This document shows positions 36,857 through 60,626 of a stretch of 64,000 nt of DNA, one piece after another. The translations under genes were made by a program, and so were the position numbers. The stretch lies in contig NZ_LWUJ01000012.1 in NCBI RefSeq assembly GCF_001645765.1, positions 62,001-126,000 of the forward strand, in the 5' to 3' direction. Numbering within the stretch: the stretch's first letter is position 1; every line of letters starts with the position of its first letter. The notes under the pieces are model-generated. The model did no database searches. It was not told the origin of the DNA and was given only the letters and a program-made list of their open reading frames with translations. The stretch comes from Candidatus Mycoplasma haematobovis (GTDB lineage Bacteria > Bacillota_I > Bacilli_A > Mycoplasmatales > Mycoplasmoidaceae).

Positions 36857-38833
36857 GTGTTTTTAAATAAGAAAGTAGTAATAGCATCTGCACTTCCATG
36901 TTTAGGAGGGATAGGTTTCATGGGGTCTACATCCAACGAAACCTATTATAGAATAATGGTAAATTACAATGGACAAGCAGATCTATTGTTAAGTTTGCAA
37001 ATATTTCCAGATTACTATCCTTATCAATTTAAGAAAACAGAACTATATGATTATTTAACAGATATAGATAAATATTTAGTAGTTAATAGTAATACCTCTA
37101 ATAATAAGAAAAAACTAAAGGAAAGGCTACAAAAAAGACTTAATGAATTATTGAAACAAGTAAAGGAGTTTGGGCCCAGTTTATGGAATGAAGATTTATA
37201 TGAGAGTGGTTTAGTATTTAAGAATGAACAACAGTGAAGCAATAGGAAGACTTCAATATTATTCTTAGAACAATTTATTGCTGATGATTTTACTAATATA
37301 GATGAATCTACTAATGGATTACCTACCTACAAAGATTTAATAGTAACTAACTATAGAGCTGCAAGAGATCCTTACACTATCTTTTCAAAGAATGTATTCA
37401 ATTGTTTTAGGGATGGAGATATCAAGAAAGTTAGTGGCAGTATTGATGACGAAACATGTCAAGAGAATCAACCAGATAAAAAATTAGCTACTGAATTCAA
37501 AAAATATGTTGATGGATACAGCCAAGAAAATATTAATTCTCTTTACAGGTTTGGAAAATACATAAGTTTTTGAAATAATTTGTTTGAGAAAACTAAGGAC
37601 AGATTAAAGACGCTAGGTATTGATAAGTGAATTAAGAACGAGAAATTATTTGCTTTAGATTCTTCTAAGGATCAAGAATTAGCCAAAAAATATGCAAGAA
37701 CAATATTTACTAAAGGGGAAATAGATACTTTAAATGGATGAGTTAAAGATGCTCCACCTCCACCTCCACCAACACAAGAATGAAAAGCGGCCTATATTCA
37801 ACAAACTTCAGCATCAGCTCGTCCTTCTTTAGCTTCAATTAAATTAATTCACCATCCTGCTCTAGAACAACAAACTTTACCTGGATCTGCCCCATTAGCA
37901 GAAGGTTCTCAAAAAGAAGTAATAGTCTTCTTATTTCAATTTGCAGCACTTATTGATGAGTATGTAAATGGGGGAGGAAAAAACAATTTTGAAACTGATT
38001 TTGCTAATGATCCAAGAAAAGAATTTATGCAAAATGCACTCAAAAATGCCCAAGCTATGGCAAAGAATTTGGAAGACAGAATTACAGCTATTAGAGAATA
38101 TTTCAAAAAGATTAACGTAGTTGATCCAAGCTTTGATCCATCAGCACAACAAACTAGCAACAATAGCAAAACTTTTGCAATAGTTACTTATCCTCCCTCT
38201 TCATTCGGCGCAGGAGAAGCAACTATTCAATCTATGTCTAAATTTCCTTTTCTCTATACAGATATAGGATTAAGACAAGTATTTCCTAAGAATCTAAAAG
38301 AAGATTTAACTCATACTCACGAAGGAGAATTATCTTTAGAGAAAGAGATATTTTCTGTTGATGATAATGGTTGATGATGAAAGATTGGAAATGTTAATTT
38401 AGATTCAAGTAATTTATTTCAATTTGAAGATCAAGCAGATAGTTTATTAGTATTAGCAAACCCAGAAGACTGGAATCTTATCAATGATAAGAATGCAGTA
38501 ACTTTAAAGTCTTTAGGAACTTTGCTTAAAGGAAAGAAAGATATTGATGCAAATAAAGTAGGCAGTGAGGGATATGAAGTTAGTTACAACAAATATCACT
38601 TATGAAATGAAGGACTCAGATCCCCCATTGCTTTAAATCTATTATTAGATAACCTAGTAAATATATTTCAAAGACAATACGACCCTAAGTTTGTAAAGAG
38701 TAAAGGAGAGAACCAGAATGGATGCTACGCAAAAGCTATGGATTGAGGAAGTTATTGATATGAAGCCTTTATTGAAAGCAAGCCTTGTGAAAATGCCAAT
38801 GGGGGCTCAACATCAACAATTACTTGTAACTAG
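36857..38833 (+). CDS. Large unknown protein with N-terminal anchor and a proline run
   Basis: 658 aa from GTG 36857 (MFLNKKVVIASALPCLGG). The anchor spans residues 5-24. The body is hydrophilic and mostly helical, with four or more Cys, a PPPPPP stretch around residue 300, and a Gln/Ala/Ser-rich region after it. The C-terminus CYAKAMDWGSYWYEAF contains several TGA-encoded Trp and ends in TITCN. No domain is recognised. It is the longest gene in the window and has no paralogue here. Its 3' end overlaps the convergent gene by 14 nt. Confidence 0.78.
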
Positions 38834-39460: not shown

Positions 39461-40444
39461 ATGGCTAAGTTAAAGATAGCTTTAACTATTTTATTATCAG
39501 CACTAGGAGTATTTGGAGCCAATAAATACTATAGTCCTAAGAGTATTAAAGATTTATTAAAGTGACAAGGAATTAGATTAGCTTCTGATGATAGAGCTTG
39601 AAGAAGTACATTCTATGATCATAAAGATAAGTTAAATGAGATGGGAATTAAGAGCCATGAAGAGCTCTGAACTTGATGTTCAGAGAAATTTAAACAAACT
39701 AATTTGGATGACCAAGATGACGTAAATAAAGTTAAAGAATTTTGCGCCGATAATGCTACTTCAATTATGGGAAGAATAATAAGAGATGGGGAAGAGGGAA
39801 GAATAATTTCTCCTGAAGATCACAAATCTTTTGCTATTGGATATGTATTAACTGGTTTATCTGAAGATGTATTGAAATTAGTAGGATTGGATGAAAGTCA
39901 AAAACAAAATTTTGATTATGTAGGTTTGAAAATTTCTGAATGGTGTGAAAAGAATAAGAACTCTAAAGTTGTTGGCCAAGCAAATATTGGGTTGTATAGT
40001 AACTTTAAGAAACGTTGTTATCAGAAAGGAGTAAAGACAGTTTCAGAGTTATTAGCAAAAGAAAAAGCAGATAAGATGCTTGATACAGATTCTTTTAAGA
40101 AAAGATTTGATGATGAATTAACAAAGGCCACTAAGTTAATTGGAGAATTAAAGGAATATATGAAAAAGAGAAAGGAAAGTAGAGTCAAGGCACATGAAGC
40201 TTACAAAAGAATTAGAGAAGCTTCAGTAAAGGATGCTGAAGAAATAAAGGAGTGAGATTTAAGAGAATTAGAGAAAATTAATAATGAGATACCTGAGAAT
40301 TTATCAGATGAACAAGTAAGGAAAAATGGTGGTCAGTATTTGAAATGATGATGCGAAGATAGGGTTAAAGCTTCTTTGTTAGATACTGGTATGTTTCCAT
40401 ATAATTACTCTATTATTAAATATCGTTGTACTGGTAAAGCTTAG
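39461..40444 (+). CDS. G1-family protein, three WC modules
   Basis: 327 aa starting MAKLKIALTILLSALGVFGANK, with an anchor at residues 4-20. After IKDLLKWQGIRLASDD come three modules with cysteines in TWCSEK, FCADNA, EWCEKN, RCYQKG, WWCEDR and YRCTGK: six in all. The conserved stretch SIMGRIIRDGEEG follows module one. A Lys/Glu-rich helix (about residues 225-275) separates modules two and three. It is followed 6 nt later by a G2 gene and probably co-transcribed. Confidence 0.87.
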
Positions 40445-40450
40445 TAGTAA

Positions 40451-41395
40451 GTGTCAGTAAAGGTTAGATCGATTGCTTTATTGCTTTCATCACTAATAAC
40501 AGGCGGTGGAGCATGATTAGGTTATGAATTGAATAAACCAAAAACAGTTGAAGGTTTTATTGAATGAAAAGGTTTGAAATTAGCTTCTGAAACAGATGAG
40601 AATCTTTGAAAGGCTTTATATTTTCAGAATAAATCAGAATTAGATAGTAAAGTAGGCAGTGTCGATGCCCTTAAAAAGAAATGTGTTAAGTTAGCTAAAG
40701 AGGCAATTAGTTATGTTGATAAGAACGTTGAATATGCTGAAAAATATTGTGTCAATACTTTAAGAAGCCGAAAAGCAAGAATTATTGCTAAAGGATTTGA
40801 TGAGAGTAAATTTTTGTCTACAGATGAAGATTACAAAGTGGCCTTTACTTTCAATAAATATAGTTCTACTTTCATCTCTTATTTAAATGATTCAGAGATA
40901 ACTAAAGATTCAGAATTTGTTGATGAAAAACCGGAAGATGAAAAGAACAAAAAACTTCTTGACGCTTACAAAAAATATTGCAAAAATGTATTAGAGGAGG
41001 ATGGCACTAAGATTGAAGTAGCAAAACAATTATGTTCAAAATATGATTACACAAATGCCGAAGAGTTTGCCAAAAGTAAGGGATATTTGGTTAAAGATAA
41101 GGGAGAGCTAAGAAAAGAGTTCCCGAAATACAAACAGCCAGATGGACAGGAAAAAAAGAAATATTTAATAGGAAATTCATTGTTAGAGGATATTAAAGAA
41201 TCTAATGAAAAAGGCAAAGAAGATAGTTGAATTGTATTAACTAAAGAGGAAGATAAATTTGAAGAGAGATTTAATATATATTGCCAGAAACAAAAGGACA
41301 GAAAGCTTTTTGAAAATAAATTTCATAAAGAAGATTGGCCTAAATTTAAAGAAAGATGTCTTAAAGAAGATCCCGCAAAGAAAACAGTTTCTTAA
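40451..41395 (+). CDS. G2-family protein, three WC modules, GTG start
   Basis: 314 aa from GTG 40451 (MSVKVRSIALLLSSLITGGG). After the anchor come WLGYELNKPKTVEGFIEWKG and three modules with cysteines in KKCVKL, KYCVNT, KYCKNV, QLCSKY, YCQKQK and ERCLKE. The relatives at 50424, 54543 and 56140 start with ATG. The spacing from the G1 stop is 6 nt. Confidence 0.86.
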
Positions 41396-42552: not shown

Positions 42553-43038
42553 ATGATTAGTCTTTTTTCTTTAGCAAAGGTTGCTGTTCCTTCGGTTACA
42601 GTTGGTGTTGTTAATTTAGTCGTTTATTTAAGCTTAAAGATTCATACAAATAAACAAATAAATTACAGAAAATACAAAATTCAAAAGCATTTTCAGACAG
42701 TTAAAGACAAAGTAATAGATAATTTGATAGATAGTAACGAAGATTTAATGAAACAAAGACATGGTGAAATCGAAAGTTATTTCAGAAGTATGGGCAACGT
42801 TAATAAATTACAGGGTCAAAAGTCTGAGGAGTTATTTAAGAAATGAAAAGAGATTGCTCCAGACGGAACAAGAATAACTTTAACTGATGATAAGAAAAGC
42901 AATTTCTTTCAAGAAGTTAGATATTATTGTACTTTAAATAAAGGATCTGATGATGTTAAGTTATTAGTTGAAATATCTAAATTATGTTCAAATGAATTAG
43001 TTGATGAAAAAGCTTTTGAATTACCAGAAAACAAATAA
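42553..43038 (+). CDS. X-family protein
   Basis: 161 aa starting MISLFSLAKVAVPSVTVGV. Anchor residues are about 5-29, followed by a basic helix with KHFQTVKDKVIDNLID and a conserved RHGEIE. The C-terminal half has FFQEVRYYCTLN and SKLCSNE, one cysteine pair 20 residues apart. It ends FELPENK. It is homologous to 43537-44025 and 52311-52793, although this copy is on the opposite strand. It is convergent with the Y gene, the two stops being adjacent. Confidence 0.83.
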
Positions 43039-43524
43039 TTATTCTATTGTAGAATAACCTGGGCCTTGATCCGTTCTAGTAACTTGGAATTTGTTACTAT
43101 TTGTTTCACTTTCTTTTGACATTGTTATTCTAAGTTTTTTATCTAAGGCTCTTAATTGACATTTTTTCTGCATATTTTCAATACTTAATCCAGTATCTAA
43201 ATTAATTGCCTCTTTGTCTTTGTCAATGCTATCAGCAAGATCCTTAATTAAATCATCTGTAACTGTTTCTTCTTTTAAGAGACTATAAGTTGATTTGCTA
43301 GTAGGATCTAAAATTAAATAGAATTTGCAACCTACTTTATCTTCAGTCTCTCTTATTTTTTTGTAATATGGATCATTCATTCTTCTTTTTTGAGCAACTG
43401 TTAAAGTAGGTACAGATTTATTAAATTGTGGTAGGTGTGTTTGATATTGAGAACACCAATAAGATAAAGAAGCTACAGAACAAGCACCACCTAAAAGCAA
43501 CCCTATCTTTAAATGTTTATCCAA
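43039..43524 (-). CDS. Y-family protein, TTG start
   Basis: 161 aa from TTG 43524 (MDKHLKIGLLLGGACSVAS); no ATG lies in frame nearby. The anchor is followed by QYQTHLPQFN, RRMNDPYYKKI, then VGCKFYLILD, a SIDKDK helix and SIENMQKKC, and a basic DKKLRI strand. It ends GPGYSTIE. Its paralogue at 51801-52304 is collinear. It is the last gene of the first V-Z-X-Y cassette. Confidence 0.8.
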   Translation of the reverse strand: MDKHLKIGLLLGGACSVASLSYWCSQYQTHLPQFNKSVPTLTVAQKRRMNDPYYKKIRETEDKVGCKFYLILDPTSKSTYSLLKEETVTDDLIKDLADSIDKDKEAINLDTGLSIENMQKKCQLRALDKKLRITMSKESETNSNKFQVTRTDQGPGYSTIE

Positions 43525-43536
43525 AAAATAAATTAG

Positions 43537-44025
43537 CTACTCTTCTTTTGGTAGTTCAAAATCCTTTTCGCTAATTACTTTTCTGGAGCATAGTTTTGAT
43601 ACAGCTATTAATAATTCTTTATTTTCAGTAGTTTTTTGATCTACACAAAAAATACGAACTTCTTGGAAAAAATTGCTTTTTTGATTGTTGTCTTGAAAAA
43701 TTGCCTGTCCATTTCTAGGAGCTACTTTTTCTCATTCCGATAATAGTTTTTGACCACCAAATTTCTTTAAAATTTCTTGATTTTTTTTATTTTGCAAATA
43801 ATTAACTATTTCTACATGTCTTTTGTTCATCAATTCGTCTTTGCCATCTATTATTTGATCAAAAACACTTTTTCTAACCGTTACGAATTGATTTCTTATT
43901 CTTAAATTCCTACTATTATGTTGAGAACGTGAATAAGCTGAAAAACTTAAATAAGTGACTAAATTTAAAGTACCAACCGCAATCGAAGGTCCCGCAACCT
44001 TTATTAATGGATAAAGGGCAAACAA
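43537..44025 (-). CDS. X-family protein, TTG start
   Basis: 162 aa from TTG 44025 (MFALYPLIKVAGPSIAVG); an in-frame TAA lies five codons upstream. It matches 42553-43038 along its length: RHVEIV, FFQEVRIFCVDQ, SKLCSRK and ending FELPKEE. It sits 12 nt upstream of the Y gene and 42 nt downstream of the Z gene. Confidence 0.8.
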
Positions 44026-44067
44026 AGTAAGCTTAAGTTAATTTTATTCGAATAAATGAATTGTAAT

Positions 44068-45057
44068 TTAGTTTTGTTTATTACAATTGGTTATATCTTT
44101 AAAGGGTTGTTCGAGAGTAGTTAAAGATTTAACATAATTTTTGGATATTAAGCATTCCAAACTATCACACTCTCCAGTTTGATGAGTATGAGCATCTTTT
44201 TTTAGAGATATAGTTTTTTCTGCCTCTTTAAATATCTTCTTTAAATTATTCTTCTCATTATTCTCTTTTCCTAAGCTAAAGGATACAGGATAATTAACAA
44301 AGTATTTCTTATTTCCTAAATTTATTGAACTATCTTTAATTAAGTCTTTGTATGCACTAAGATCAGGATCTACCTTTTCTTTATATGAATAATCAGTAAA
44401 TCCATATACAGTAGTTCCAACTAATTTTGTTGGTGTTGGTTCCGAATTTTCATCTTTATTTAAATCAACATCATTACCTAAATATATGTGAGCTTGTACC
44501 GGTTGTAAATATGCATAATTTCAAGCACTATAGAGATTAGTTAAATAAGTAGCAAAAGATTTTTGATCTTTAATTATTTCTTCTTTATTATTGCAATCTA
44601 TTTGTTCTTGACAACACTTTAAGAAGCAACCTAATTCAGTTTTTAATGGGCATTTATCTGTAGTGCATTGAGTACATTTAATCTCTGGAATATCTGTCTT
44701 TTCTTTATTTAATCACCTAATACTTGAAAGGACATTAATTTTGTGTTGGGTTAATAAGTAATATCTAGCTAACTCAGACAAGTATTTGTATTTTTTATTA
44801 TTTCCAATAGGTTTTCATTCACTTCTATTAAAGTATTGGACTTTACTAGTATCACTTAAGTTTTCTATTCATACTTTGATTCTTGTAGCATTACTGTCTT
44901 GACTGTCTTTTCCATAGAATCAAACTTCAACTAGTTTATTTCAATTTGGTGCAACTTCATTTAATTTATTAGTTCTTGTTTCTAAATTTAATAAGAAAGG
45001 AATACTACCTCCAAAAGGAATTAAAGCAAGCAGTAGTTTAGGACTATATCAAATCAT
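44068..45057 (-). CDS. Z-family protein with cysteine cluster
   Basis: 329 aa starting MIWYSPKLLLALIPFGGSI. After the anchor comes NKLNEVAPNWNKLVEVWFYG. The middle has a cysteine cluster (CTQC, DKCP, GCFLKCC, DC; about residues 125-155), then SAWNYAYLQPVQAHIYLG, VGTTVYGFTDYSY and FVNYPVSF. Near the C-terminus are GECDSLECLISKNYVKS and TNCN. The paired cysteines suggest a disulfide-bonded exported domain (inference). Its paralogues are 52793-53764 (broken) and 62697-63731. Confidence 0.85.
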
Positions 45058-45725
45058 TAATTTGAAGGAGATTGTTCACTACCTTCTTGTTTTGGCCCTG
45101 ATACCGGTGCCAGTTTGTTTTTCTTTATGCATCAAGCCAAAACGTTGTAGCTTGTATTTTTGTTTTCATTAGAGTGGTAAAGTTCATATTTTTGAGAACA
45201 GTATTCTGATAGTTTGTTTTTTGCATTTTCTTTTGTAGCATCCTTTATTTCTTTTTTTATTTGTTCTTGATTTTTTTCAAAAATTTCTGTTCAATCACTA
45301 CTATTTTGTGGATCTGTTGTTAGGAATTTATCTCCATCAGAGAAATGTGATTCATGATATTCATTAATCTTTAATGTGCACAGTTTGATTATTTTTTCAT
45401 AGATATCTTTAACTGAATTGAAAAATACTTTGCCATTAGTAAATGATTCACATTTTTGCTTTATTTCATTTCCTTCTGAACTTACTTTAGTGTAATCTAA
45501 ATCCTTTAATAGCAATTCACCATTCTTTTTTGTGTCTTTATAAAGAGTAGCTCTTTTCTTTCAAACTTCCGTAGCTATTTTTTCTTTTGAAGAAATAAGT
45601 ACATAACCTTCAAGCGCTAATTTCTCACTTACAGATGAGCTTGATCTAGCTTGAGATAATCCAATAGCGGCAGAAGCAATACAACCAACAGCGCCAAGCG
45701 CACACGCTTTAATAGGGAACGACAT
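45057..45725 (-). CDS. V-family protein, two WC modules
   Basis: 222 aa starting MSFPIKACALGAVGCIASA. The anchor is followed by LSQARSSSSVSEKLALEGYVL. The module cysteines are in QKCESF, KLCTLK, EYCSQK and AWCIKK, followed by a polar SGPKQEGSEQS tail. It overlaps the Z start by 1 nt and is the first gene of the V-Z-X-Y cassette. It is divergent from the broken G1 copy at 45793. Confidence 0.86.
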
Positions 45726-45740
45726 ACAGTGTTGTAGGCT

Positions 45741-45750
45741 TTATATTTAG
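45741..45750 (-). promoter_or_regulatory. Putative V-gene promoter element (CTAAATATAA)
   Basis: On the minus strand CTAAATATAAA lies about 17 nt before the V start. Nearly the same string precedes the V genes at 47646 (47678-47686) and 49338 (49350-49359). It contains a TATAAA-type -10 box. Conservation at three divergent loci supports a promoter role; no transcript data are available. Confidence 0.45.
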
Positions 45751-45792
45751 TTTATAGGTTCTAAGACTTAATAATTACTAAAGTTATAGATA

Positions 45793-46270
45793 ATGGGTAA
45801 GCTGAAAATATTTGTAACTTTGTTATTTTCAGCTTTAGGAATATTTGGAGTTAATGAGTAATACAAACCTAGAAATATTAGGAATTTATTTTAGTGAAAG
45901 AGAATAAAGCTTTCTTCTGATAATAGAGCATGTTTTTTGAAAACGAAAAAAAGCTAAAGAAGATAGGGATTGACAGTGAAACTTAAATATGATCTTGATT
46001 TTTTGAGAGATTAAATCAATTAATTTAGATGATGCAACAACTTTAAAGGATGCAAGCAAGTTTTGTTCAGATAGTGACAGATCCATCATGGGTAGGATTA
46101 TTATGGAGGAATATGAAAAAGAAAAGGAGAGAATTAAGAAAATAATTCCCCACCTTTCAATTGATGATGTGAAAAGAAATTAAATAGTTCACTACTTGTT
46201 AAAGATATGTACCCCTGCTGTTTATGCTGTAGTCAGATATAGATGTACTGAAAAAACGACTTTAAATTAA
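45793..46270 (+). pseudogene. Decayed G1 gene, internally deleted
   Basis: ATG 45793 encodes MGKLKIFVTLLFSALGIFG, then TAA, NIRNLF, TAG and further G1 fragments (SIMGRI and a C-terminal RYRCTEK). About half the length is deleted. The first about 205 bp are nearly identical to 47738-47945, including the TAG. Confidence 0.8.
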
Positions 46271-46318
46271 TGAAAAATTAATTAGACCTGTTAGTAAATT
46301 ATTTTGTTAATTGAAAGT

Positions 46319-46978
46319 TTAAGCAGTGTCCCCATCTGTACTAGCTGACGGTTTTTGAGTTGTTGGTTTAGCTTTCTTAACACATCATGATTTAGCATTA
46401 CTACTATCATCTCTATTCTTATTTGAATGCTTTAATAAATAAATTTCATTACAAAAATTAGATAATTTCTCTCTAGCATTTGTTTCTGAAGCATCAGAGT
46501 ATTTTTGAGTTATTTGGTCTTTGTGTTGTCCGAAAATTTCTTTTCAATCTTCTTCTGCTCCATTTGATTCCATAATTGCGTCTCCTGAGCTTAAGTGGGA
46601 CTTGATGTACTCTTTTATATCTAAAGTACATAACTTGACAATTTTGTCATAAATTGATGTACCTACAGAATCAACAGTCATTTTCCCACTAGTAAATGAA
46701 TTACATTTTTCTTTAATTTCTGTTCCTTCTGTTTTGACATTTGCAGGTAATAGATCATCAAATAGCAAATCTTGATTTTTTGCGTTATCTTTATAAAGAG
46801 TAGCTCTGGTTTTTCAAACTTCAGCCTCTATACTAGATTTATCGGAAACCAATTCATAACCCTCCAGCCCTAACCGTTCTCTTATTGTTGAGCTTGACTT
46901 AGCTTGCGTAAGTCCAATACCAGCAGCAATAGCACATCCTGCAACTCCTATTGAAACTGTTTTCATTGGGAAAGTCAT
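46319..46978 (-). CDS. V-family protein, two WC modules
   Basis: 219 aa starting MTFPMKTVSIGVAGCAIAA. After the anchor comes LTQAKSSSTIRERLGLEGYELV. The cysteines are in EKCNSF, KLCTLD, NFCNEI and SWCVKK; the tail is PTTQKPSASTDGDTA. It is followed in tandem, 11 nt upstream, by another V gene. No Z, X or Y genes accompany this copy. Confidence 0.86.
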
Positions 46979-46989
46979 ATTACTTATTT

Positions 46990-47646
46990 TTAAGGATCTT
47001 TAGGTGGAGCTTCCGCTACTGGCAATTTTGATGGCTCTTTTTCTCTTTTTATGCACCATAAACTAGCATTTATTCTGTCTTCTTTATGTTTATTGGAATG
47101 ATGCAATTTAAAAGTATCTGCACAAAATTTAGACAGCACTTCTGTCGCTTTATCTTCTGTAGTATTTTTGAATTTTTTCTTTATTTCGTCTTCATATTTT
47201 TTGAAATTAGCTTTTCAAATATCTTCGTTATTATTGATATCAGATATTACTTTGTCTTGTCCACTTAAATGAGATTTAAGATATTCACCAATATTTAAAG
47301 TGCATAATGCAGTAACTTTTTCATAGTTTGCTTCTCCTATATCTTTAACTCTTGTTTTCTTATTTTTGTATTCTTCACATCTTTCTTTAATTTTGTCTCC
47401 TTTTTCATCTACCGATTCTTTAGATAAATCATTCAATAATCATTCATTTGCAGTGCCTTTGTAAATAGTGGCCCTTGCTTTTCAAACTTCTTCTGCTACT
47501 TTTTCTTTAGAAGATATTAATTCATATCCCTCTTCTCCTCATTTCTCTAATAAAGTTGGACTATATTTTGGTTGTGCTAATCCAACTGCGACAGCAGTTA
47601 CACATCCAATGCCACCAACAACACAAGCCTTAATAGGAAAAGACAT
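46990..47646 (-). CDS. V-family protein, two WC modules
   Basis: 218 aa starting MSFPIKACVVGGIGCVTAV, which resembles the 45057 gene. The cysteines are in ERCEEY, ALCTLN, KFCADT and LWCIKR, with a Pro-rich tail (EAPPKDP). It is divergent from the broken G1 copy at 47738. Confidence 0.86.
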
Positions 47647-47677
47647 GTAGGTTATTTGTATTCTGAATTGTTAATTT

Positions 47678-47686
47678 TTATATTTA
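47678..47686 (-). promoter_or_regulatory. Putative V-gene promoter element
   Basis: TAAATATAA on the minus strand, 32 nt before the V start at 47646. It is the second instance of the element described at 45741. Confidence 0.35.
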
Positions 47687-47737
47687 AGTTAGTAAGTTCC
47701 TGAAACTAAATAATTAGTAGTATTAAAGTTGTAAATA

Positions 47738-48652
47738 ATGGGCAAGCTGAAAATATTTGTAACTTTGTTATTTTCAGCTTTAGGAATATTTAGAGCTAAT
47801 TAGCACTACAAACCCAGAAATATTAGGAATTTATTTTAGTGAAAGAGAATAAAGCTTTCTTCTGATAATAGAGCATGTTTTTTGAAAACGAAAAAAAGCT
47901 AAAGAAGATAGGGATTGACAATGAAATTTCAATATGATCTTGGTTTTCTGAAAGATTTAAATCAACTAATCTAGATGATGAAAAAACATAAAATGACGCT
48001 AGTAAGTTTTGCTAAGATACTGACACTTCAATTATGGGAAGAATAATAAGAGATGATGAGTGTGTTAAGGTAATCAAAAAAGGAAATAGTGAGGCATTTT
48101 CAATCAATTATGTTTTGACAGAGGACGTTCTCCAGAAGTACTTGAGTTAATCGGCCTTAAAAAAGAACAAAAACAATTCTAAAGGAAGTTAATGACAAAC
48201 TTTTAGAGTGATGTGAAGAACAAAAGACAACAAAGATTACTAGTAAGGATGATTTAGATCAGTTTAGTAACTTCAAAAAACGTTGTTACAATGGGAAAGT
48301 ACATTCTCTCAATTCCTTACAAAGCAAAGAAAAACAACTATGACTACTAGCAAAGAATTTCAAGATAGATTTGAGAAAGAATTAAAAAACGCCTCAAAAC
48401 TAATTTAAACAACAGAGAAAACCAAGGCTGAAAGTGAAAGAGAACTACAAAACGCTTGTTGATATCGAGCTTAAAGAAGAGGGCGAATGGGAACAAAAAC
48501 TTATTGAAAGTATTTTAAAGGAGAAAGATTGAGAAAACTACAAATGATGATGCGAAAAATATTTGAGAGGTTTCTTGCTTGATAATAATATGTATCCTAA
48601 AACTTACAAAGTAGTTAGCTATAGGTGCACTAATCAAACGGTAGCAAACTAA
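47738..48652 (+). pseudogene. Decayed full-length G1 gene
   Basis: ATG 47738 encodes MGKLKIFVTLLFSALGIF, with TAG at the 22nd codon and the same TAG as in 45793-46270 after NIRNLF. Later parts still read DTSIMGRIIRDDE, FSNFKKRCYNG and KWWCEKY in shifting frames, ending at TAA 48652. At least four lesions are present. Confidence 0.8.
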
Positions 48653-48681
48653 TAAATTAGTTATTAGTCACTATCTGAATC

Positions 48682-49338
48682 TTAATTCTCTTCTTGTTGA
48701 TCTGTCCTTTTTCCGGAGGGTTTAGGTTTTTCTTTTCTCTTTACACATCACTGGTTTGCTTGGTATTCTTTGTCTTTATTACTATTTGATTTTTGTAATG
48801 AAAAAACTTCCTCACAAAATTTAAATAGTTTATCTTTAAAGTTATCGTCTTTAATTTCTTTAATAACTTTTGTTATTTCCTCTTTATGCTTATCAAAAAC
48901 TTCTTTTCAATCGTGTTGATCATCTTTGCCTATTATTTTTTCGCCATTTGTTTCATTTAAATGTGATTGAATGTATTCTTTAATATTTACAGTACATAAC
49001 TTAGTAATTTTTTCGTAACCATCTTCTCCTATTAAATTTGTTGGAACATCTTTATCAGTATACTTTGAACATTCTTCCTTTAATTTATTGCCATCAGATA
49101 ATACATCTTCATCTCTTAAACCTCTAAGCATTAAAGTACGTGGTTCTCTTTTGTAAAGAGTAGCTCTATTTTTTCAAGCTTCTGTTGCTACTTTATCTTT
49201 TGAGGAAATAAGTATGTATCCTTCAATACCTAATTTTTCTCTTACAGATAAGCTTGATCTAGCTTGAGATAATCCAATGGTGGCAGAAGCTATACAGCCA
49301 ACCCCTCCTAATATACATGCTTTAGTTGGTAAAGCCAT
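48682..49338 (-). CDS. V-family protein, two WC modules
   Basis: 218 aa starting MALPTKACILGGVGCIASA. The anchor is followed by LSQARSSLSVREKLGIEGYIL. The cysteines are in EECSKY, KLCTVN, KFCEEV and QWCVKR, with a basic and Gln-rich tail. It is divergent from the intact G1 gene at 49411, with 72 bp between start codons. Confidence 0.86.
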
Positions 49339-49349
49339 AAGATTGTTAC

Positions 49350-49359
49350 TTATATTTAG
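49350..49359 (-). promoter_or_regulatory. Putative V-gene promoter element
   Basis: CTAAATATAA on the minus strand about 12 nt before the V start at 49338. It is the third instance of the element at 45741. The shorter distance may mean the start codon or the element has moved. Confidence 0.35.
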
Positions 49360-49410
49360 TCAATAAATGCATTAACAATTAGGACGTTAATAAATATAAA
49401 TATTTCAATT

Positions 49411-50394
49411 ATGAGCAAACTTAAGTTTTTTGCAACTCTGTTATTTTCAGCTTTAGGAATATTTGGTGCTAATTGATACTACAAACCCAGAAATATTAAG
49501 GATCTATTGAAATGACAAGGTATTAAATTGGCATCGGATAATAAAGCATGAAAAAGCATGTTCTTTGAACATCAAGAAGAGTTGAAATTGAAAGGCATTG
49601 AAAATGAGGATAGTCTATGATCTTGATGTTCTGAGAGATTTAAGTCAACTAATCTAGATGACGACCAAACATTAGCAGAGGCTAAGAAATATTGTTCAGA
49701 TAGTGCCCAATCCATCATGGGTAGGATTATTAGGGAAGGTGAAGAAAATATGGTTATTGGTAAAGATGATTATGGTGCTTTTGCAGTTAATTACGTTCTA
49801 ACGGGACATTCAAAGGAAGTTCTTGATTTAGTAAATTTACCAGAAGAACAACAATCCAACACTTTTTACGTTAGTCAAGAACTATCAAAATGATGCGAAA
49901 AGAAAAAAATAGAAAAAATTACTAACCAAGAAGATTTAGATAAGTTTAGTAACTTCAAAAAACGTTGTTACAACAGAGGAGTAAAGACAATTTCTGATCT
50001 TTTGAAAAAACAAGGACTAAAGCCTATGACAGGGGATGAAGCATACAAAAAAAGATTTAAAGATGAGTTAAAAGATGCCCCAAAATTAATTGAAGAAATA
50101 AGAAGTAATTTAGAGATAAGAAGAGCTAAATTGAAGGAAGCGTGACAGTTTCTCAGAAGAACCAAAGAAGCTTACAAAAGCAAAGAAGAATTAGATGAGG
50201 AAGAAGCAAAAGAACTAGAACGTATTTCAAAAATAGTACCTGATAATCCCGAAGATAAAGAGTTAAAGGAAAATGGTTGGAGACACTACAAATGATGATG
50301 CGAAGATAGGTTGAAAAGGAATTTAACCGATGCTGGAATATATCCTAATACATATGCTATTGTTAGTTATAGATGTACTGAAAAAGTTGCTTAG
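49411..50394 (+). CDS. G1-family protein, three WC modules
   Basis: 327 aa starting MSKLKFFATLLFSALGIFGAN, exactly the length of the 39461 protein. It contains IKDLLKWQGIKLASDN, six module cysteines (SWCSER, YCSDSA, KWCEKK, RCYNRG, WWCEDR, YRCTEK) and SIMGRIIREGEEN. It is the intact reference for the broken copies at 45793, 47738 and 57608. It is followed 29 nt later by a G2 gene. Confidence 0.88.
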
Positions 50395-50423
50395 TAAATC
50401 AAGCAGCATTAGGGATTTAATTT

Positions 50424-51323
50424 ATGTCCTTTAAATTTAATTCGATTGCTTTATTGCTTTCTTCATTATTAACTGGGAGTGGAGCATGAGTAGGTTATGA
50501 ATTATACAAACCAAAAACAGTTAAAGGATGAGTGGAATGAAAAGGGTTGAAATTAGCTTCTGAAACAGATGAGAATATTTGAAAGGCTCTGTATTTTCAA
50601 AACGAATCAGAATTACAAGGAACTACTAAATCAGCTGAAGAATTAAAGAAAACTTGTGTTGAATATTGAAAAAAACCAATTGAAAATAAAAATCTTGAAT
50701 ATGTTGAGAAGTTCTGTGTTAATGTTTTGAAAAGTCGTAAGGCAAGAATAATTGCAGAGGGATTTGATAAGGCTATATTTCTAAGTACTGATGAGGATTA
50801 CAAATTAGCCTATACGTTTAATAGGTATAGCGACTCTTTCTTAGCATTGTTAGGCAGTGATAAAGCAACTAGAGATTCAGAAATTGATGAACAAGATAGT
50901 GAATTATTAAGAATTTACAAGAATCATTGTGAAACAGCACTAAATACAAATGACACTAAGATTAATGTTACAAAACAAATTTGCTCTAAGCAGTATGAAT
51001 ATGTAACTGCTGAAGATAAGCTTAAGCATGATGGATACGAATTAAAGACTGATAAAGAATTAGAGGATTCATGAGATACATGAAAGGGAAGTAAATCTAA
51101 AAATTATTTAGTAGGTAACAGTTTATTAGAGGATATTAAAGATCGAAACGGCGGGGATGATTCATGAATTAAATTACAGGATAATAAGAAAGAATTTGGT
51201 ATTCGTTTTAAAGCTTGATGCCAAGAGCAGAAAGTAGAGAAGTTATTTAAGAGAAATTTTTACAAAGATATTTATCCTAAATTCAAAAATAGATGTGGTA
51301 CACCAAAAGCAGCAAAAACTTAA
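50424..51323 (+). CDS. G2-family protein, three WC modules
   Basis: 299 aa starting MSFKFNSIALLLSSLLTGSG, then WVGYELYKPKTVKGWVEWKG. The six module cysteines lie in KTCVEY, KFCVNV, NHCETA, QICSKQ, AWCQEQ and NRCGTP. Conserved stretches are KSRKARIIAEGF and YLVGNSLLEDIKD. It ends TPKAAKT. Confidence 0.88.
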
Positions 51324-51342
51324 TAAATAATAGATAGTATTA

Positions 51343-51410
51343 AACTTAAATTCTTTGAAATTTTAGGAATGTTTGAAGTTAATGAGTATTACAAACTAAG
51401 AAATAATTAG
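51343..51410 (+). pseudogene. G1 leader fragment
   Basis: About 68 bp recall the G1 start (KFFEILGMF, then VNEYYK and KK in mixed frames). No body follows. It is a relic of another G1 copy. Confidence 0.5.
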
Positions 51411-51433
51411 GTAATTTTGATAATACTTTTAAT

Positions 51434-51670
51434 TTAACGTTTTTCGCATTTGTCTAAAAATTTTTTTCTTAATTTTTCATTTTTTCGGTAACGAGCATGC
51501 ACATTGTTTATGCATTGTGTATATTTTTTCTTTAAATCAGCTTTTGTTCTATCTGTACTTACAACACTAGCAGTTGTTGATTTTCCTGCATTAATAAATA
51601 ACCCTGTACCACAAACACAAGTAGCTAAGGTAGCTGTACCGATACTAAAAATTTTATTAATTAAATTCAT
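51434..51670 (-). CDS. 78-aa anchored basic protein
   Basis: Complete ORF starting MNLINKIFSIGTATLATCVCG with an anchor over residues 8-28, then a str polar linker and a Lys/Arg-rich helix containing TQCINNVHARYRKN and ending FLDKCEKR. It has two Cys in the soluble part about 24 residues apart, the spacing of one WC module. No paralogue was seen in the window. Confidence 0.65.
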   Translation of the reverse strand: MNLINKIFSIGTATLATCVCGTGLFINAGKSTTASVVSTDRTKADLKKKYTQCINNVHARYRKNEKLRKKFLDKCEKR

Positions 51671-51800
51671 AAATAATGTTTAATAAATTTGTGTATATCA
51701 CTTTTTTAACCCAAGACTTTTAACTAAAGGATAAATAAACTATTGGAAACTTTTTGATATAGCTTACCCAAATAAAAAAGAGGAGAACTCAATAAAATAA

Positions 51801-52304
51801 TTATTCTTTGTAATTGTAACCAGAACCACCTTGTTCATTAGTTCTTACTTGGTATTGATATTGTTTTAGAATCGATGAACCACTGCTAGGAATTTCTACT
51901 CTAACAATTCTAAGTTTTTTGTCATATCTTGAAGCGCATTTAGCTTTCATGTTTTCGATACTTAAATTTGTATCTGTTTTTTGTGATTTGTCATTATCTA
52001 TACTAGTAGCTAGTTTTTCAATCATGTCATCTGTAATTTCTTGCTCTCTTAATAGGTTGTAAGCTGTTTTATTTGCATTTTTGAAATCAAGAATTAAATA
52101 AAATTTACAACCAACTTCCCCCTCTGCTTTCAATATTTTTCTGTAACTTGGACTATTTATTCTTTCTCTTTGGGCAGAAGTTAAAGCAGGTTTAACGTTA
52201 AATTGTGGTAGGTGAGAGTTGTATTGAGTACTTCAATAAGCAACAGAAGAAACAGCACATACACTCCCCAATCCTAAACCAATCCTCAAATGTTTATCGA
52301 ACAC
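51801..52304 (-). CDS. Y-family protein, GTG start
   Basis: 167 aa from GTG 52304 (MFDKHLRIGLGLGSVCAVSS). It contains QYNSHLPQFN, RINSPSYRKI, VGCKFYLILD and SIENMKAKC, and a C-terminal GGSGYNYKE. It is collinear with 43039-43524. It is the last gene of the second V-Z-X-Y cassette, 6 nt after the X gene. Confidence 0.82.
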
Positions 52305-52310
52305 GTTTCA

Positions 52311-52793
52311 TTAATCGGGTAAATCAAAGTCTTTTTCTTGTACTGTTTTTTTGGAACATAGTTTTGATATCTCTACTAATAATTTCTTATCTTCTGCGTC
52401 TTTCTTACTAATACAGAATACACGAACTTCTTGAAAGAAATCATTTTTCTTTTCTTGATCTTGCAGAATAGCCTCTCCACTCTTGGGAGCTATTTTGTCT
52501 CATGCATTTATTAAGCTTGTTCCACCATACTGTTTTAAAAAATCTTTATTCTTTTCGTTTTTGAAGAACGCTTCAATAGTTCCGTAACGACTATTAATTA
52601 ATGTATCACGCTCTCCTATTATGTTGTCAAAGATTTCTTTCTTAACTGTTCTGAAATGTTTCTGTATTCTTCAGTTTCGGTTATTTGTTTGTATTTTTGT
52701 ATTTATTTGAAAGCTTAAATAAGTAAATAAATTTAAAACGGCAACTATACCAGTAGGCGCAACTAACTTTATTATTGGATATATTCCTAACAT
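52311..52793 (-). CDS. X-family protein
   Basis: 160 aa starting MLGIYPIIKLVAPTGIVAV. It carries KHFRTVKKEIFDNIIG, FFQEVRVFCISK and SKLCSKK, and ends FDLPD. This ATG-started copy supports the TTG start chosen for 43537-44025. Its start overlaps the Z stop by 1 nt. Confidence 0.85.
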
Positions 52794-53764
52794 TATTTAA
52801 AATTTTTGCAGTTTACAATATCTTTAAATGATTGATCTAATGAACTGAAAGACTTTACATAGTTCTTAGAGATTAAACATTGCAAATTATCACAATTACT
52901 TTGGCTTGTTTGTGTTTCGGTTTTTTTCACTAAATCACTATTCTTTTTTGATTCTTCAAATATTTTCTTTAATTTGTTATCTGATTCTTGAAGATCAAAT
53001 GTTTGAGGGTAATTAATAAAGTATTTGTTACTACTTATTTGATTTTCGTTCTTTATTAATTCTTTGTAACGACTAGTATCTGGATTTTTCTTTTCCTTGT
53101 ATTGATAATCAGTAAAGCTATATATTGTTGTTCCAACTAATTTAGTGGGTTTGGGCTCAACATCATTGTTATTTAAATCAACATTATCTCCTAGATATAT
53201 GTGCGCTTGAATAGGCTGGAAGTATGTACTATTTCAAGCACTGTAAAGATTAGATAAGTAAGCTGCAAAGGTTTTTTGATCTTGCTTTATTGTTTCTTCA
53301 TTACAAGGAGTTTGATCTTTACAACACTTTAAGAAACACTCTAGTTCGGACTTTGCAACACATTGTGTTGATGGACATTGAGCACACTGTAGATCTTTGA
53401 TTTCATTATTATCTTTAGATAATCAATGAAAACTGGAAGCTATATTAATTTTGTGTTGAGTTAATAAATAATACTTAGCTAATTCAGCTAAGTATTTGTA
53501 TTTCTTGCTATTACCAATAGGTTTTTAGGCATTGTTATCTAAGTATTCAGCCCTATTAATATTCTCTAAATCCTCTATTCATACTTTGATACTTGTGTCT
53601 TTATTGTCTTTACCATAGAATTTAACTTGAATTAATTTATTTCAATGTGGTGATGTTTCATTTAATTTGTTTGTAGAGCTAATCGTACTTAGTAATAAAG
53701 GAATACTTCCACTAAATGGAGCAACACCTAACAATGAACAAATTATTAATTTAGGACTGTACAA
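52793..53764 (-). pseudogene. Z-family gene with a Trp-to-stop change and no ATG
   Basis: It is collinear with 44068-45057: NKLNETSPHWNKLIQV, the cysteine cluster (CAQC, TQCV, ECFLKCC, PC), VQAHIYLG-like and NLQCLISKNYVKS, ending NCKNFK. In-frame TAA at 53525-53527 replaces the TGA (Trp) of the intact copy just before KPIGN. The start is unclear: TTG 53764 is the best candidate, since the ATG position holds ATT. A single point change inactivates it unless read through. Confidence 0.75.
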
Positions 53765-53787
53765 AACAATGTATTATTTTAGATATC

Positions 53788-54441
53788 TTAATCCTCTGAA
53801 TCACTATCAGTTGGTTTTGTGGGAGAAGCAGGTCTCTTTACACATCAGTAATTAGCATTGCTACTTGTGGATGAATTAGTATTAGATTGTTGTAGTTCAT
53901 AAACTTTTTCACAATATTCAGATATTTTCTCTTTTGCATTATCTTCATTTATTCCTTCAATTTCTGTAGACATTCTGTCTTTATGTTCTTTAAACTTATT
54001 GTTTCATTCTTCATCTTGTCCTTGCTTTTCTATGAATTTGTCTTCTTTGTTTAAATGAGATTGAATATATTCTTTGATCTTTAAAGCACAAAGTTTAGTA
54101 ATTTTTTCATAAATATCTTTATCTATTGAATTCATAGTTGTTTTTCCATCAGTAAATTTGTCACATTTTGCTTTAAGCTCATCCCCTTTTTCATTTACAT
54201 TAGTGTGTGGCAAATCACTTAATAATACACTGCTGTTTTTTGAAGTATCTCTATAGATTGATGCTCTATTTTCTCAAGCTTTTGTAGTTATTTTCTCATC
54301 TTTAGAAGAAATAAGAACATAACCATCTAACGCTAGTCTTTCTTTTATGCTTAAGCTTGATCTAGCTTGAGACAAGCCAATAGCAACAGATGTTATGCAT
54401 CCTGCCCCAGCAACTAGGCAAACTTTAGCAGAAAAAGCCAT
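53788..54441 (-). CDS. V-family protein, two WC modules
   Basis: 217 aa starting MAFSAKVCLVAGAGCITSV. The anchor is followed by LSQARSSLSIKERLALDGYVL. The cysteines are in AKCDKF, KLCALK, EYCEKV and YWCVKR, with an acidic tail (PTDSDSED). It is the first gene of the second V-Z-X-Y cassette and divergent from the G2 gene at 54543. Confidence 0.86.
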
Positions 54442-54542: not shown

Positions 54543-55451
54543 ATGGCATTCAGATTTAATTCTGTTGCTCTGTTGCTTTCATCATTATTGACTGGTGGTG
54601 GAGCTTGAGTAGGTTATGAATTATACAAACCAAAAACAGTTAGAGATCTTATTGCTTGAAAAGGATTCACTTTAGCTTCTGAAGAAGATAGTGGCATTTG
54701 AGAAGCACTTTATTTTCAAGGCAAAGCTGAGTTAGGTGATAAAGTTACGGATGCCAGTACATTAAAGCAATTCTGTGTTAAGACTGCAAAAGAAAAGATA
54801 GATTACTCTAGTAAGAACTATGAACATGTTGAAAAGTTTTGCGTTAATGCCTTGAAAAGTAGGAGGGCTAGGATTATTTCTAAAGGATTTAAGGAAACTG
54901 ATTTTCTAAGTACTGATGATGATTACAAGTTGGCTTTTATTTTCAACAGGTATAGTCCTACTTTCTTATCTCTTTTAGGAAAACCTAATCTTACGAAAGA
55001 TACTGAAATAGATGATAATTCAGAACTCTTACAGTCCTATAAAGACTATTGTTCGAAAGTATTAAATGAAGATGATATTAAGATTGCTGTATCACAACAA
55101 TTATGTTCAAAAAGTAAAGAAAAAACAGTAGTAGATTTGTTAACTAAAGACGGATACACTTTACGAAGCGATCAAGAATTAGAAGCAGATTTCGAAAAAT
55201 ACAAACAAGATAATAATGGTAAAGACGCAAAGTACGTTGTAGGTAATACCCTTTTGGAGGCAATTAAGGATGTTTCACAAGGAGAAGATAGCTGATTAGA
55301 TTTAACTAGGGACAAAAATAAATTTGCAACTCAATTTAAGAAATACTGTAATGAACAGAAAGAAAAATCACTTTATGCAAAAGACTTCTTAAAAGATGTC
55401 TATCCAAAGTTTAAATCTAGATGTGCTAATGAAATTAAACCTTCGCGCTAA
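54543..55451 (+). CDS. G2-family protein, three WC modules
   Basis: 302 aa starting MAFRFNSVALLLSSLLTGGG, then WVGYELYKPKTVRDLIAWKG. The cysteines are in QFCVKT, KFCVNA, DYCSKV, QLCSKS, KYCNEQ and SRCANE. The first about 66 bp are identical to those of 56140. It lies alone, without a G1 partner. Confidence 0.87.
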
Positions 55452-56139: not shown

Positions 56140-57057
56140 ATGGCATTCAGATTTAATTCTGTTGCTCTGTTGCTTTCATCATTATTGACTGGTGGTGGAG
56201 CTTGATTAGGATATGAATTGTACAAGCCTAAAACAGTTGAAGGATGAGTAAATTGAAAAGGGCTTAAGTTAGCTACAGAAGATAAAGATAATCTTTGAAA
56301 AGCCCTTTATTTTCAAGGAAAACATGAGCTAGGCGAAAAGATTAAAGATTGAGAAGAATTAAAGAAGTCTTGTGTTAAAGCTTGAAAACAAAAAACAGGC
56401 AATGATAATAAGGATTTAGAGTATGTAGAGAAGTTCTGTCTAGATAATTTAAAGACTAGAAAAGCAAGAATAATAGCTACAGGTTTTGATGAAAAGATCT
56501 TTTTAAAAGAAGATGAAGACTTTAAAGTGGAGTTTACTTTCAACAGGTATAGCCCTACTTTTCTTGAACTTTTAGGCGAAAAGAAAACAGATAAAGAACC
56601 AGAAATTGACAAGAATCAACCATTACTAGAAAAATATAAAAAATATTGTGAGGATGAGTTAAGCGCTAATGATACTAAGATTGAAGTTGTAAAGCAGATA
56701 TGTTCAAAACAACATAAATATCAAACAGCTGAACAAAAACTTACTAGCGAGGGATTAATTTTAAAGAGCTTAGATGATTTGAAAGGAGAGTGGAAAAATT
56801 ATAGAGATGAAAAAAAATCAAAAAATTACAGAATAGGAAATACTCTCTTAGAGGATATTAAGGATACTTCTACACAAGATTCTTGAATAGAATTACAAGA
56901 TGATCAAAATAAGTTTGGGCAAAGGTTTAATGAATGATGTAGCAATCAAAAGGACAAAAAATTATATGAAGAAAACTTCTACAAAGAAACTTATCCTAAA
57001 TTTAAAACACGTTGCTCTAAATCAAAAACAGGGAAATTAATTACTCAAACAGAATAA
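56140..57057 (+). CDS. G2-family protein, three WC modules
   Basis: 305 aa starting MAFRFNSVALLLSSLLTGGG, then WLGYELYKPKTVEGWVNWKG. The module cysteines are in KSCVKA, KFCLDN, KYCEDE, QICSKQ, EWCSNQ and TRCSKS. It ends ITQTE. Identity with 54543 is highest in the leader and falls off after it. Confidence 0.87.
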
Positions 57058-58064: not shown

Positions 58065-58469
58065 TTAGTCGGAAGGAGGCAGTTCTCTTGGATCGATACG
58101 AAAACCTGACCCCCCTCTTCATGCTACGTTTGATAGCGTAATAACTCTACCGTTCGTACAATAAGTTCTATATATTTCTGCTCCTTCAATTATTTTGTTT
58201 TTTCATATTTTTTCTTTATCTTTATGCTTTGCCAAAAATTCATTAGCAGTGTATATTACACTTCCTCTTCACTTTTCAACGAATGTAAATTTACAATTAT
58301 TAAATTTTTCATAAATTTTAATATCCTCTAAACTTGTTATTTTTTTTGGTAAATTAACTTTTGAAAGGCTAATTGGTTTAGTTAATAACTCATTAGCAAC
58401 ACTTACATTTGTTGATAAATAAACTGTACTTCCTGCAATAGCTGTTTTCGATAGAATCTTAAGAATCAT
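58065..58469 (-). CDS. YGC-family protein
   Basis: 134 aa starting MILKILSKTAIAGSTVYLS. After the anchor comes the signature DIKIYEKFNNCKFTFVEKW, then NEFLAKHKDKEK, and the second cysteine in YRTYCTNGRVITL. The C-terminus is GSGFRIDPRELPPSD. It is the most downstream intact copy of the minus-strand YGC array. Confidence 0.84.
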
Positions 58470-58484
58470 AGAATTTAAAAATAA

Positions 58485-58835
58485 TTAATAGCTTGATACC
58501 CTTTCTTCAAAAACTCTTCTTCCAAAATTAAAGGATAGTGTCACTGCTTTTTGTTTTTTGCATTGGTCTTTAAATTTATTTGTTTCTGTTATCAAGTCTT
58601 TTTCCCATTGATTTTCTTGTCATTCCTTTAAAAATTTTTCAAAGTTGTATGTTGTCGATCAAAAACTAACAAATACAAAATTACACCCATAAAAGTTTTC
58701 ATAAATAGACATATCTGCCAGATTGGCAATAATTGTTGGCATAGTTTTTTCTTCAATTTTATGTCTACTATTTATTAAACTGCCTTCAACGTCTATAGAG
58801 TTTGATAAATACATTTTGCCACTTGCACTGCCCAT
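58485..58835 (-). CDS. YGC-family protein with shortened leader
   Basis: 116 aa from ATG 58835 (MGSASGKMYLSNSIDV). In-frame sequence upstream continues as IKIAL to a TAA, so the first about eight residues of the usual leader cannot be read from an ATG. The signature is DMSIYENFYGCNFVFVSFW and the second Cys is in DQCKKQKAVTL. It is possibly a silenced copy whose start codon was lost. Confidence 0.65.
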
Positions 58836-58961
58836 TAATGCTATTTTTATAGTACTTTAAGTAGCACAGAAAATAAGTTTAAACTTTCAATTTTTATTAG
58901 ATATTGTTGTCAAAAACAGCAAATCGTATGTAGGATAGTTATTTCTTAAAAAATCAATAAT

Positions 58962-59342
58962 TTAAATCTTAAGTTCAAAAACTTTTTTATGATTGTTAAA
59001 GGCCAATGTTGCTATCTTTTTTTCTTTACAGTTTAATTTAAAGGTATTTGCACCTTTAATTATTCTTTGTTTTCATTCAGCCGTTTCATATCTACTTAAA
59101 AATTTCTCAAAATTATACATTGTTTGATTTGTTCAATTGTCAATAAATACAAAATTACAATTGTTAAGTTTTTCATAAAGCTTAATATCGTCTAGATTAT
59201 TTATTGTTTTTGTGAAAGAAGAGTCTTGGAGATCAAGTTGTTTTGGCGGCAATGTATCAGAGATATCTAAAGAATTTGTTAAATATACCGCTCCCCCAAC
59301 TCCTCCAAATAATGCTGTTTTTGAAAGCATCTTAAGAATCAT
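58962..59342 (-). CDS. YGC-family protein
   Basis: 126 aa starting MILKMLSKTALFGGVGGAVYL, then TNSLDISDTLPPKQLDL and the signature DIKLYEKLNNCNFVFIDNW. The second cysteine lies in LNCKEKKIATL. It ends KVFELKI. Confidence 0.85.
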
Positions 59343-59393
59343 AAAAAATGGAATCTTTTAAGAAATAAAGACTATCAATAAATTACTTAAGCT

Positions 59394-59735
59394 TTCAGCT
59401 TAAAGACTGTTCTGTCAAAACTAGCGTTACTACTTGCTTGTTTTTGCAATATTTCTTAAAATCATTTGTTCCTTTAATTAGGCATTATAATTATTTAATT
59501 TTTTGTATTCTTTCAAGAATTTTTAAAATTGTATGTCGTTGGCCAAAAGCTAATAAAGCCAAACTTGCAACCATAAAACGACATATCACCTAGCAATTCT
59601 TGTTGGTAAAGATTTTTCTGCAATTTTATGAGTGTCATTTAATAGACCATTAGGGGGTCTTTATAGCATTAGATAAATATACTGCACTTTCGGCGCCTCA
59701 TTATTACTGTTTTTTGCAAAACTTTAAAAAAACAT
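59394..59735 (-). pseudogene. Decayed YGC-family gene
   Basis: It starts MFF and then TAA. Remains of the leader (KTVIM, YLS), a YGC-like segment in another frame and a C-terminal stretch survive, with several stops and frameshifts. It lies between two intact copies. Confidence 0.6.
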
Positions 59736-59801
59736 GAAGGCTCAAAATCAATTTTTGCTGTATATTATTGTTAAGCTTTCAAACTTAGAATAAGTAAATT
59801 T

Positions 59802-60185
59802 TTATTTTGGGTGATAAATTACAAATTTATTAACATGAAAAGCAAGAGTAATAAACTTTTGTTTTTCGCATCTTGTCTTGTGTTCATTAGTTGCGCTAAT
59901 GATTAGATTTGGTCATTTTTTATCTTCCTTATTTTTTTTTATGAATTCTCTAAAACTATAGGTTTCTTTTTTGTCTCAATTATTAATGAATACAAAATTA
60001 CACCCATAAAAGTTTTCATATAGTTTGATATCTTCTATTTTTGTAATTGTTGCTGGTAAGAAAGTTTTTTCAAGTTGTTTTTGTTTATTTACTAACTGTT
60101 CAGGCACATCTATAGCATTAGATAAATATATTGCACTCCCTGCACTCCCTAAAACCACTACTCTGGAAAGAGCTTTAAAAAGCAT
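59802..60185 (-). CDS. YGC-family protein
   Basis: 127 aa starting MLFKALSRVVVLGSAGSAIYL, then SNAIDVPEQL and the signature DIKLYENFYGCNFVFINNW. A run of A8-9 in the coding strand falls in the FIKKNKED segment. The second cysteine is in TRCEKQKFITL. It ends FVIYHPK. Confidence 0.85.
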
Positions 60186-60207
60186 AAAGCCGCCATTTTA
60201 ACTAACT

Positions 60208-60539
60208 TTAAAAGTAAATACTTTTGTGTTTTTGGTAAATTAAAGTCACGTTTTTTTCCTTTTCACAACTACTCTTATTTTTATTAGCTCCATAAGTCAC
60301 TAACCCTTCTCATCTTATATTTCCTATTCATTCATCTGGCTTTGTCCTTGCTTGATCTAAAAGACCTCTAGTGTTATGTATTTGTTGTTCATTCCATTTA
60401 TTTAAAAGAATATATTTGTATCTATATTGTTTTTGGTAAGCATTCTCTATTAATAAACCATCATCAACTCTTGTATTTATTACAAAATAAAATTGCACCT
60501 TCTATTAATCCGACCTTAGATACCTAATTTAGCCATCAT
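60208..60539 (-). pseudogene. Diverged YGC-like gene, frameshifted near its start
   Basis: From ATG 60539 the frame gives MMAKLGI and TAA. Another frame is open from about 60490 to 60208 and encodes NAYQKQYRYKYILLNKW, RGLLDQARTKPDEW and SSCEKEKNVTLIY. The plan is that of the YGC family, but YGC itself is replaced (RYKYI). Confidence 0.6.
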
Positions 60540-60626
60540 ATTTATTTGATTTCTGAATTAGGCGCCCTAATAAATTCTTATTAGTAGTATTATTCTTTAA
60601 ATTTTGCGTTAAGGAAAATCATAAAT

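Follow-up and report, generated by a model that had tools for sequence, protein, structure and literature searches.

'Candidatus Mycoplasma haemobos' ('Ca. M. haemobos') is a red-blood-cell mycoplasma of cattle. In its sister species M. haemofelis and M. haemocanis, with which it is compared here, paralogue families account for 63-72% of coding sequences and have been interpreted as an antigenic pool (PMC3196708, PMC3496576, PMC3958358). Two further described systems are relevant: the MIB-MIP system, by which immunoglobulin is captured and cleaved, with its F1-like X0 ATPase (PMC8593674, PMC12994834) and the immunoglobulin-binding Protein M family, reported absent from haemotropic species (PMC8593674). 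We analysed a window of 64,000 nucleotides (nt), positions 62,001-126,000 of contig C12, from the 'Ca. M. haemobos' genome (935,638 bases in 18 contigs), using translation table 4, in which TGA encodes tryptophan. On the minus strand of this window a run of four genes, designated V-Z-X-Y in order of transcription, is found twice, at 45725-43039 (copy 1) and 54441-51801 (copy 2). We propose, with a probability of roughly 0.72, that the two runs are copies of a wider segment, A-B-[Y-X-Z-V], which underwent a single, ancient duplication inside a paralogue-rich island. The genes of the two runs are as follows (aa, amino acids).

45057-45725, minus strand: V1, 222 aa, two-module haemoplasma paralogue
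44068-45057, minus strand: Z1, 329 aa, Z-beta branch, putatively anchored cysteine-rich orphan; its ATG overlaps the V1 stop by 1 nt
43537-44025, minus strand: X1, 162 aa, TTG start
43039-43524, minus strand: Y1, 161 aa, TTG start
53788-54441, minus strand: V2, 217 aa
52793-53764, minus strand: Z2, Z-beta branch, TTG start, in-frame TAA at 53527-53525
52311-52793, minus strand: X2, 160 aa; its ATG overlaps the Z2 stop by 1 nt
51801-52304, minus strand: Y2, 167 aa, GTG start

A first-pass annotation of this DNA had described the twofold V-Z-X-Y order and a strong divergence of the copies, and both observations hold, with protein identities of 51% for V, 58% for Z, 47% for X and 54% for Y. It had also assigned to the two copies equal spacing and the same single-base overlaps, which proved incorrect. 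In copy 1, V and Z overlap by 1 nt and are followed by gaps of 42 nt (Z-X) and 12 nt (X-Y); in copy 2, the overlap of 1 nt lies between Z and X, with gaps of 23 nt (V-Z) and 6 nt (X-Y). Start codons are TTG or GTG in X1, Y1, Z2 and Y2. Since the genes of both copies are consecutive, on the same strand and no more than 42 nt apart, a common transcript for each run would be plausible. Promoter-like sites were not commoner than in shuffled sequences and so speak neither for shared nor for separate promoters. The V, Z, X and Y products each carry one N-terminal hydrophobic segment, and all four are likely anchored in the membrane at this extremity. This agrees with the earlier description of X and Y as short anchored proteins (160-167 aa, a single hydrophobic stretch each).

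The repeat unit is wider than four genes and comprises at least six, for likely membrane proteins. Plus-strand genes A and B precede both copies, and two long DNA matches span A-B (39484-40923 versus 49434-50890, 67% identity) and Y-X-Z-V (43127-45674 versus 51907-54390, 66% identity), which defines A-B-[Y-X-Z-V] as the repeat unit. The repeat is far above chance (DNA comparison, E 2e-172). The additional genes are:

39461-40444, plus strand: A1, 327 aa, three cysteine pairs, first gene of the wider block, copy 1
40451-41395, plus strand: B1, 314 aa, second gene of the wider block, copy 1
49411-50394, plus strand: A2, 327 aa, copy 2
50424-51323, plus strand: B2, 299 aa, copy 2

Non-synonymous divergence (dN) between copies 1 and 2 is 0.42 for A, 0.38 for B, 0.39 for V, 0.40 for X, 0.39 for Y and 0.29 for Z. 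This similar divergence of all six families, together with their collinearity, fits one old block duplication, and the V-Z-X-Y order would then have been retained because the larger block was duplicated. In the tree of Z proteins, Z1 and Z2 are sisters inside the Z-beta branch (support 100/100 and 100/99). Synonymous divergence (dS) amounts to 1.1-1.5, near saturation; with this reservation, pairwise dN/dS values of about 0.2-0.4 suggest purifying selection on V, Z, X and Y.

After such a duplication in the 'Ca. M. haemobos' paralogue island, the copies would have been worn down unevenly, with a nonsense codon in Z2, extra V, B and X copies and remnants of A, and with later local copying or conversion. 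Judging from spacing, anchors and cysteines, each V-Z-X-Y run probably forms a single short operon, encoding proteins that are anchored at the N-terminus and face outwards, with outward domains that may be held by disulfides. By analogy with the literature on the pool, its two- and three-module members V, A and B would be expendable surface antigens. The four products would thus be co-located by descent, and a four-part complex is unnecessary to explain the pattern.

Several points weigh against a single event of this kind. The V and B trees leave the pairing of copy 1 with copy 2 unsettled, the V fork staying open, so that a single event covering the six genes is not proven. B2 is nearer to B4, a further B paralogue, than to B1, and B1/B2 identity is 84% over the first 191 nt and 62% thereafter. 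Gene conversion or stepwise duplication, instead of one six-gene event, is possible, and the near-saturated dS makes the equal age of the six families only approximate. In addition, Y-X-Z-V remained contiguous despite the decay of neighbouring A copies, so that some joint selection is conceivable. In favour of a block duplication, on the other hand, collinear duplication is common in this region and not special to the two runs: we counted 56 collinear runs of at least three homologous genes among the 116 genes of the contig region, many of them overlapping. The A-B-[Y-X-Z-V] block stands out solely by mixing six distinct families.

Joint selection would be expected if V, Z, X and Y formed an obligate surface complex, the run being kept intact since all four parts are needed. 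Such joint action had been put forward in the first-pass annotation, and it would agree with the common order, strand and short gaps of both copies, the 1-nt overlaps at V1-Z1 and Z2-X2, the single N-terminal hydrophobic segment of each product and the dN/dS below 1. We nevertheless consider it unlikely. The distribution of the four families was surveyed in 95 genomes of the family, 'Ca. M. haemobos' included. Z is present in three copies in 'Ca. M. haemobos' and in four copies each in M. haemofelis and M. haemocanis, and was not found in the remaining 92 genomes; a pattern scan over GTDB species genomes likewise matched M. haemofelis and M. haemocanis only. In both sister species the Z genes form divergent pairs without X or Y alongside. 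In the 94 other family genomes, X and Y gave nothing but marginal matches (E 0.001-0.007). The close V subfamily consists of five copies, all in this 'Ca. M. haemobos' region; it was not found in M. haemofelis or M. haemocanis, where the best of the distant V homologues are separated from Z by more than 100 kb. The occurrence of Z without X and Y in the sister species, and the confinement of X and Y to 'Ca. M. haemobos', point to a lineage-specific four-gene unit; a conserved four-protein complex finds no support in the related genomes. Within the window, too, V and X copies exist without Z, A and B were duplicated as well, and Z2 contains a stop codon. Any physical contact between the four products is speculative.

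The Z2 frame is broken by the TAA at 53527-53525, at a position where ten aligned Z relatives have an invariant tryptophan. Beyond it, about 243 codons are still open, with a dN/dS of 0.21 against Z1, so that the stop may be recent, a sequencing error or tolerated. Z2 appears, on this evidence, to be broken or misread.

The families of the block differ in their relation to the haemoplasma paralogous families (M. haemofelis family 1 and relatives; PMC3196708, PMC3958358), which also occur in large same-strand arrays. V resembles them in sequence, anchor, its two modules and four invariant cysteines. A V profile matches many paralogues in all three species; among 20 aligned V-type proteins W55 and four cysteines are invariant, and the V N-terminus is hydrophobic. 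On these matches V is a member of the haemoplasma paralogue pool, defined by W...C...(W/L)C modules, an N-terminal anchor and a length of about 200 aa. The two WC modules previously attributed to V stand as modules, but not as two literal WC: V1 and V2 have one WC each, the first module terminating in LC. A and B, with three cysteine pairs, are relatives of pool families. X differs in showing a weak relation only, a match to an M. haemofelis paralogue (hmmsearch domain E 5e-4) in which the anchor and a cysteine pair correspond; a profile-profile comparison between X and V was negative. Possibly, X is an offshoot of the pool with one module. For Y and Z no relation was detected: a profile search of Y against the pool gave no match at E <0.05, and hhalign was negative for both; Y and Z are orphan families. 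The V subfamily, X and Y differ further from the described families in that they look confined to 'Ca. M. haemobos' among the genomes searched. None of V, Z, X and Y matched a credible family in Pfam, NCBIfam or PHROGs. The structure model of V is all helical, with a mean predicted local distance difference test (pLDDT) of 85, and Foldseek found no significant match for it in the PDB or in BFVD. This largest of the haemoplasma protein families may therefore have a new fold.

Z has a setting of its own, which across species is a MIP-family serine protease and not V, X and Y. As had been noted, it contains a dense cysteine cluster (7 cysteines within residues 128-155 of Z1). Its tree has two branches: alpha, with Z3 and those sister-species members that lie on the minus strand, and beta, with Z1, Z2 and the members on the plus strand.

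62697-63731, plus strand: Z3, 344 aa, Z-alpha branch; overlaps a gene for a DUF2779 nuclease, MIP-family protease genes following outside the window

In M. haemofelis and M. haemocanis, Z-alpha and Z-beta are divergent neighbours at two loci each. At one locus in each of the three species the order is Z-alpha, DUF2779 nuclease, MIP-family protease, a 196/202-aa gene and a 433/447-aa gene; the 'Ca. M. haemobos' locus is inverted, with insertions, and the 202-aa gene is not listed at the M. haemocanis locus (L022). A MIP-family protease is found within about 2 kb of Z-alpha in 3/3 species. This synteny is the firmest positive result of the analysis, and the Z-MIP locus is the part most worth following.

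One may then suppose that Z works with MIP-family proteases against host antibodies, replacing a missing MIB, and that Z-beta near V, X and Y is a lineage-specific expansion. Besides the conserved order, this is favoured by the proteases themselves, as in the MIB-MIP system: five at Z loci score above the NCBIfam Ig_SerProt_MIP cut-off (NF045841) and keep the His/Asp/Ser motifs. Also in its favour, and in contrast to that system, no MIB was found above cut-off in the three genomes (TIGR04526, best 16 bits against 150), nor a second F1 alpha/beta pair (two PF00006 matches per genome, forming one pair), whereas MIB-MIP elsewhere is accompanied by a second F1-like ATPase (PMC12994834). On the other side, the three related species share the neighbourhood by descent from a single ancestral locus, so that the association amounts to one or a few independent instances; Z-alpha and MIP are separated by a DUF2779 nuclease; one M. 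haemocanis Z pair has no adjoining MIP; and 10-20 kb separate Z1 and Z2 from the closest MIP. No similarity of Z to MIB was detected. Its sequence has no match in the PDB, and Foldseek found nothing significant among PDB structures, MIB and Protein M included, for its low-confidence model (mean pLDDT 62, predicted template modelling score 0.70). With Protein M, Z shares a single trait, that of an anchored mycoplasma surface protein, and matches it neither in sequence nor in fold. We regard a Z-MIP partnership as a reasonable if tentative guess, quite unlikely to account for the repeated run, and any role of Z in immunoglobulin handling as speculative. More doubtful still is the fuller proposal of Z as an antibody-binding or accessory partner of MIP-family proteases, specific to haemoplasmas, that in the haemofelis group took the place of MIB together with the MIB-MIP ATPase and was expanded in M. 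haemobos with V, X and Y into a host-facing module.

The DUF31/MIP peptidase profile has 16 matches in 'Ca. M. haemobos', several of them fragmentary, against 3 in M. haemofelis and 2 in M. haemocanis, which looks like an expansion with apparent decay. Most of the 16 are not near Z, a further point against the partnership.

An assembly artefact as the source of the repeated block is barely credible: the assembly is an Illumina draft in 18 contigs at about 48x coverage (PMC4939789), but copies with about 66% DNA identity are too different for one misassembled locus, and errors are conceivable for single-base features alone, such as the Z2 stop.

If the two runs descend from one duplicated A-B-[Y-X-Z-V] segment, haemoplasma paralogue islands can grow by duplicating mixed multi-gene blocks, and an order that two copies within one genome have in common is for this reason weak evidence of joint function. 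Z itself is a family for which we found no description. Synteny links it to MIP-family proteases in species in which neither MIB nor the ATPase of the MIB-MIP system was detected; how these blood parasites handle antibodies thereby becomes a testable question.

Further copies of the block families lie around the two runs:

42553-43038, plus strand: X3, an inverted third X, tail to tail with Y1 and with no Z or Y partner on its strand
46319-46978, minus strand: V3, V paralogue without Z, X, Y
46990-47646, minus strand: V4, V paralogue without Z, X, Y
48682-49338, minus strand: V5, V paralogue without Z, X, Y
from 45793 and from 47738, plus strand: A remnants, interleaved with V3-V5
54543-55451, plus strand: B3, additional B paralogue
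56140-57057, plus strand: B4, additional B paralogue

The A-remnant stretches 45776-46015 and 47721-47960 (240 nt) are 93% identical, far closer than other repeats there, and this pair is a recent duplication of decayed gene pieces.

A 658-aa protein (window 36857-38833) and its 646-aa paralogue (locus L024, 5174-7114) are flanked by two MIP-family proteases in 'Ca. M. haemobos'. The 658-aa protein has relatives at 60-63% identity in both sister species and no Pfam, NCBIfam or PDB match. We considered it as a MIB candidate and rejected it, as it also lacks an immunoglobulin-blocking match and lies away from MIP in M. haemofelis. A family of anchored proteins of 116-160 aa, with six full members in the window, occupies 58065-61034 (minus strand) and 32035-32517 (plus strand); its sister-species relatives stand directly after the 658-aa gene family (loci L048 and L052). 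A relationship between Y and the short 58-61 kb proteins, plausible by eye, was unsupported by searches. A UvrD-like helicase at 33447-35375 has eleven matches on contigs C12, C1 and C16, several fragmentary or with internal stops, an unusual number for a small genome. Finally, a 458-aa open reading frame at 6070-7446 has HSDR_N, the N-terminal domain of type I restriction R proteins, as its only Pfam match.
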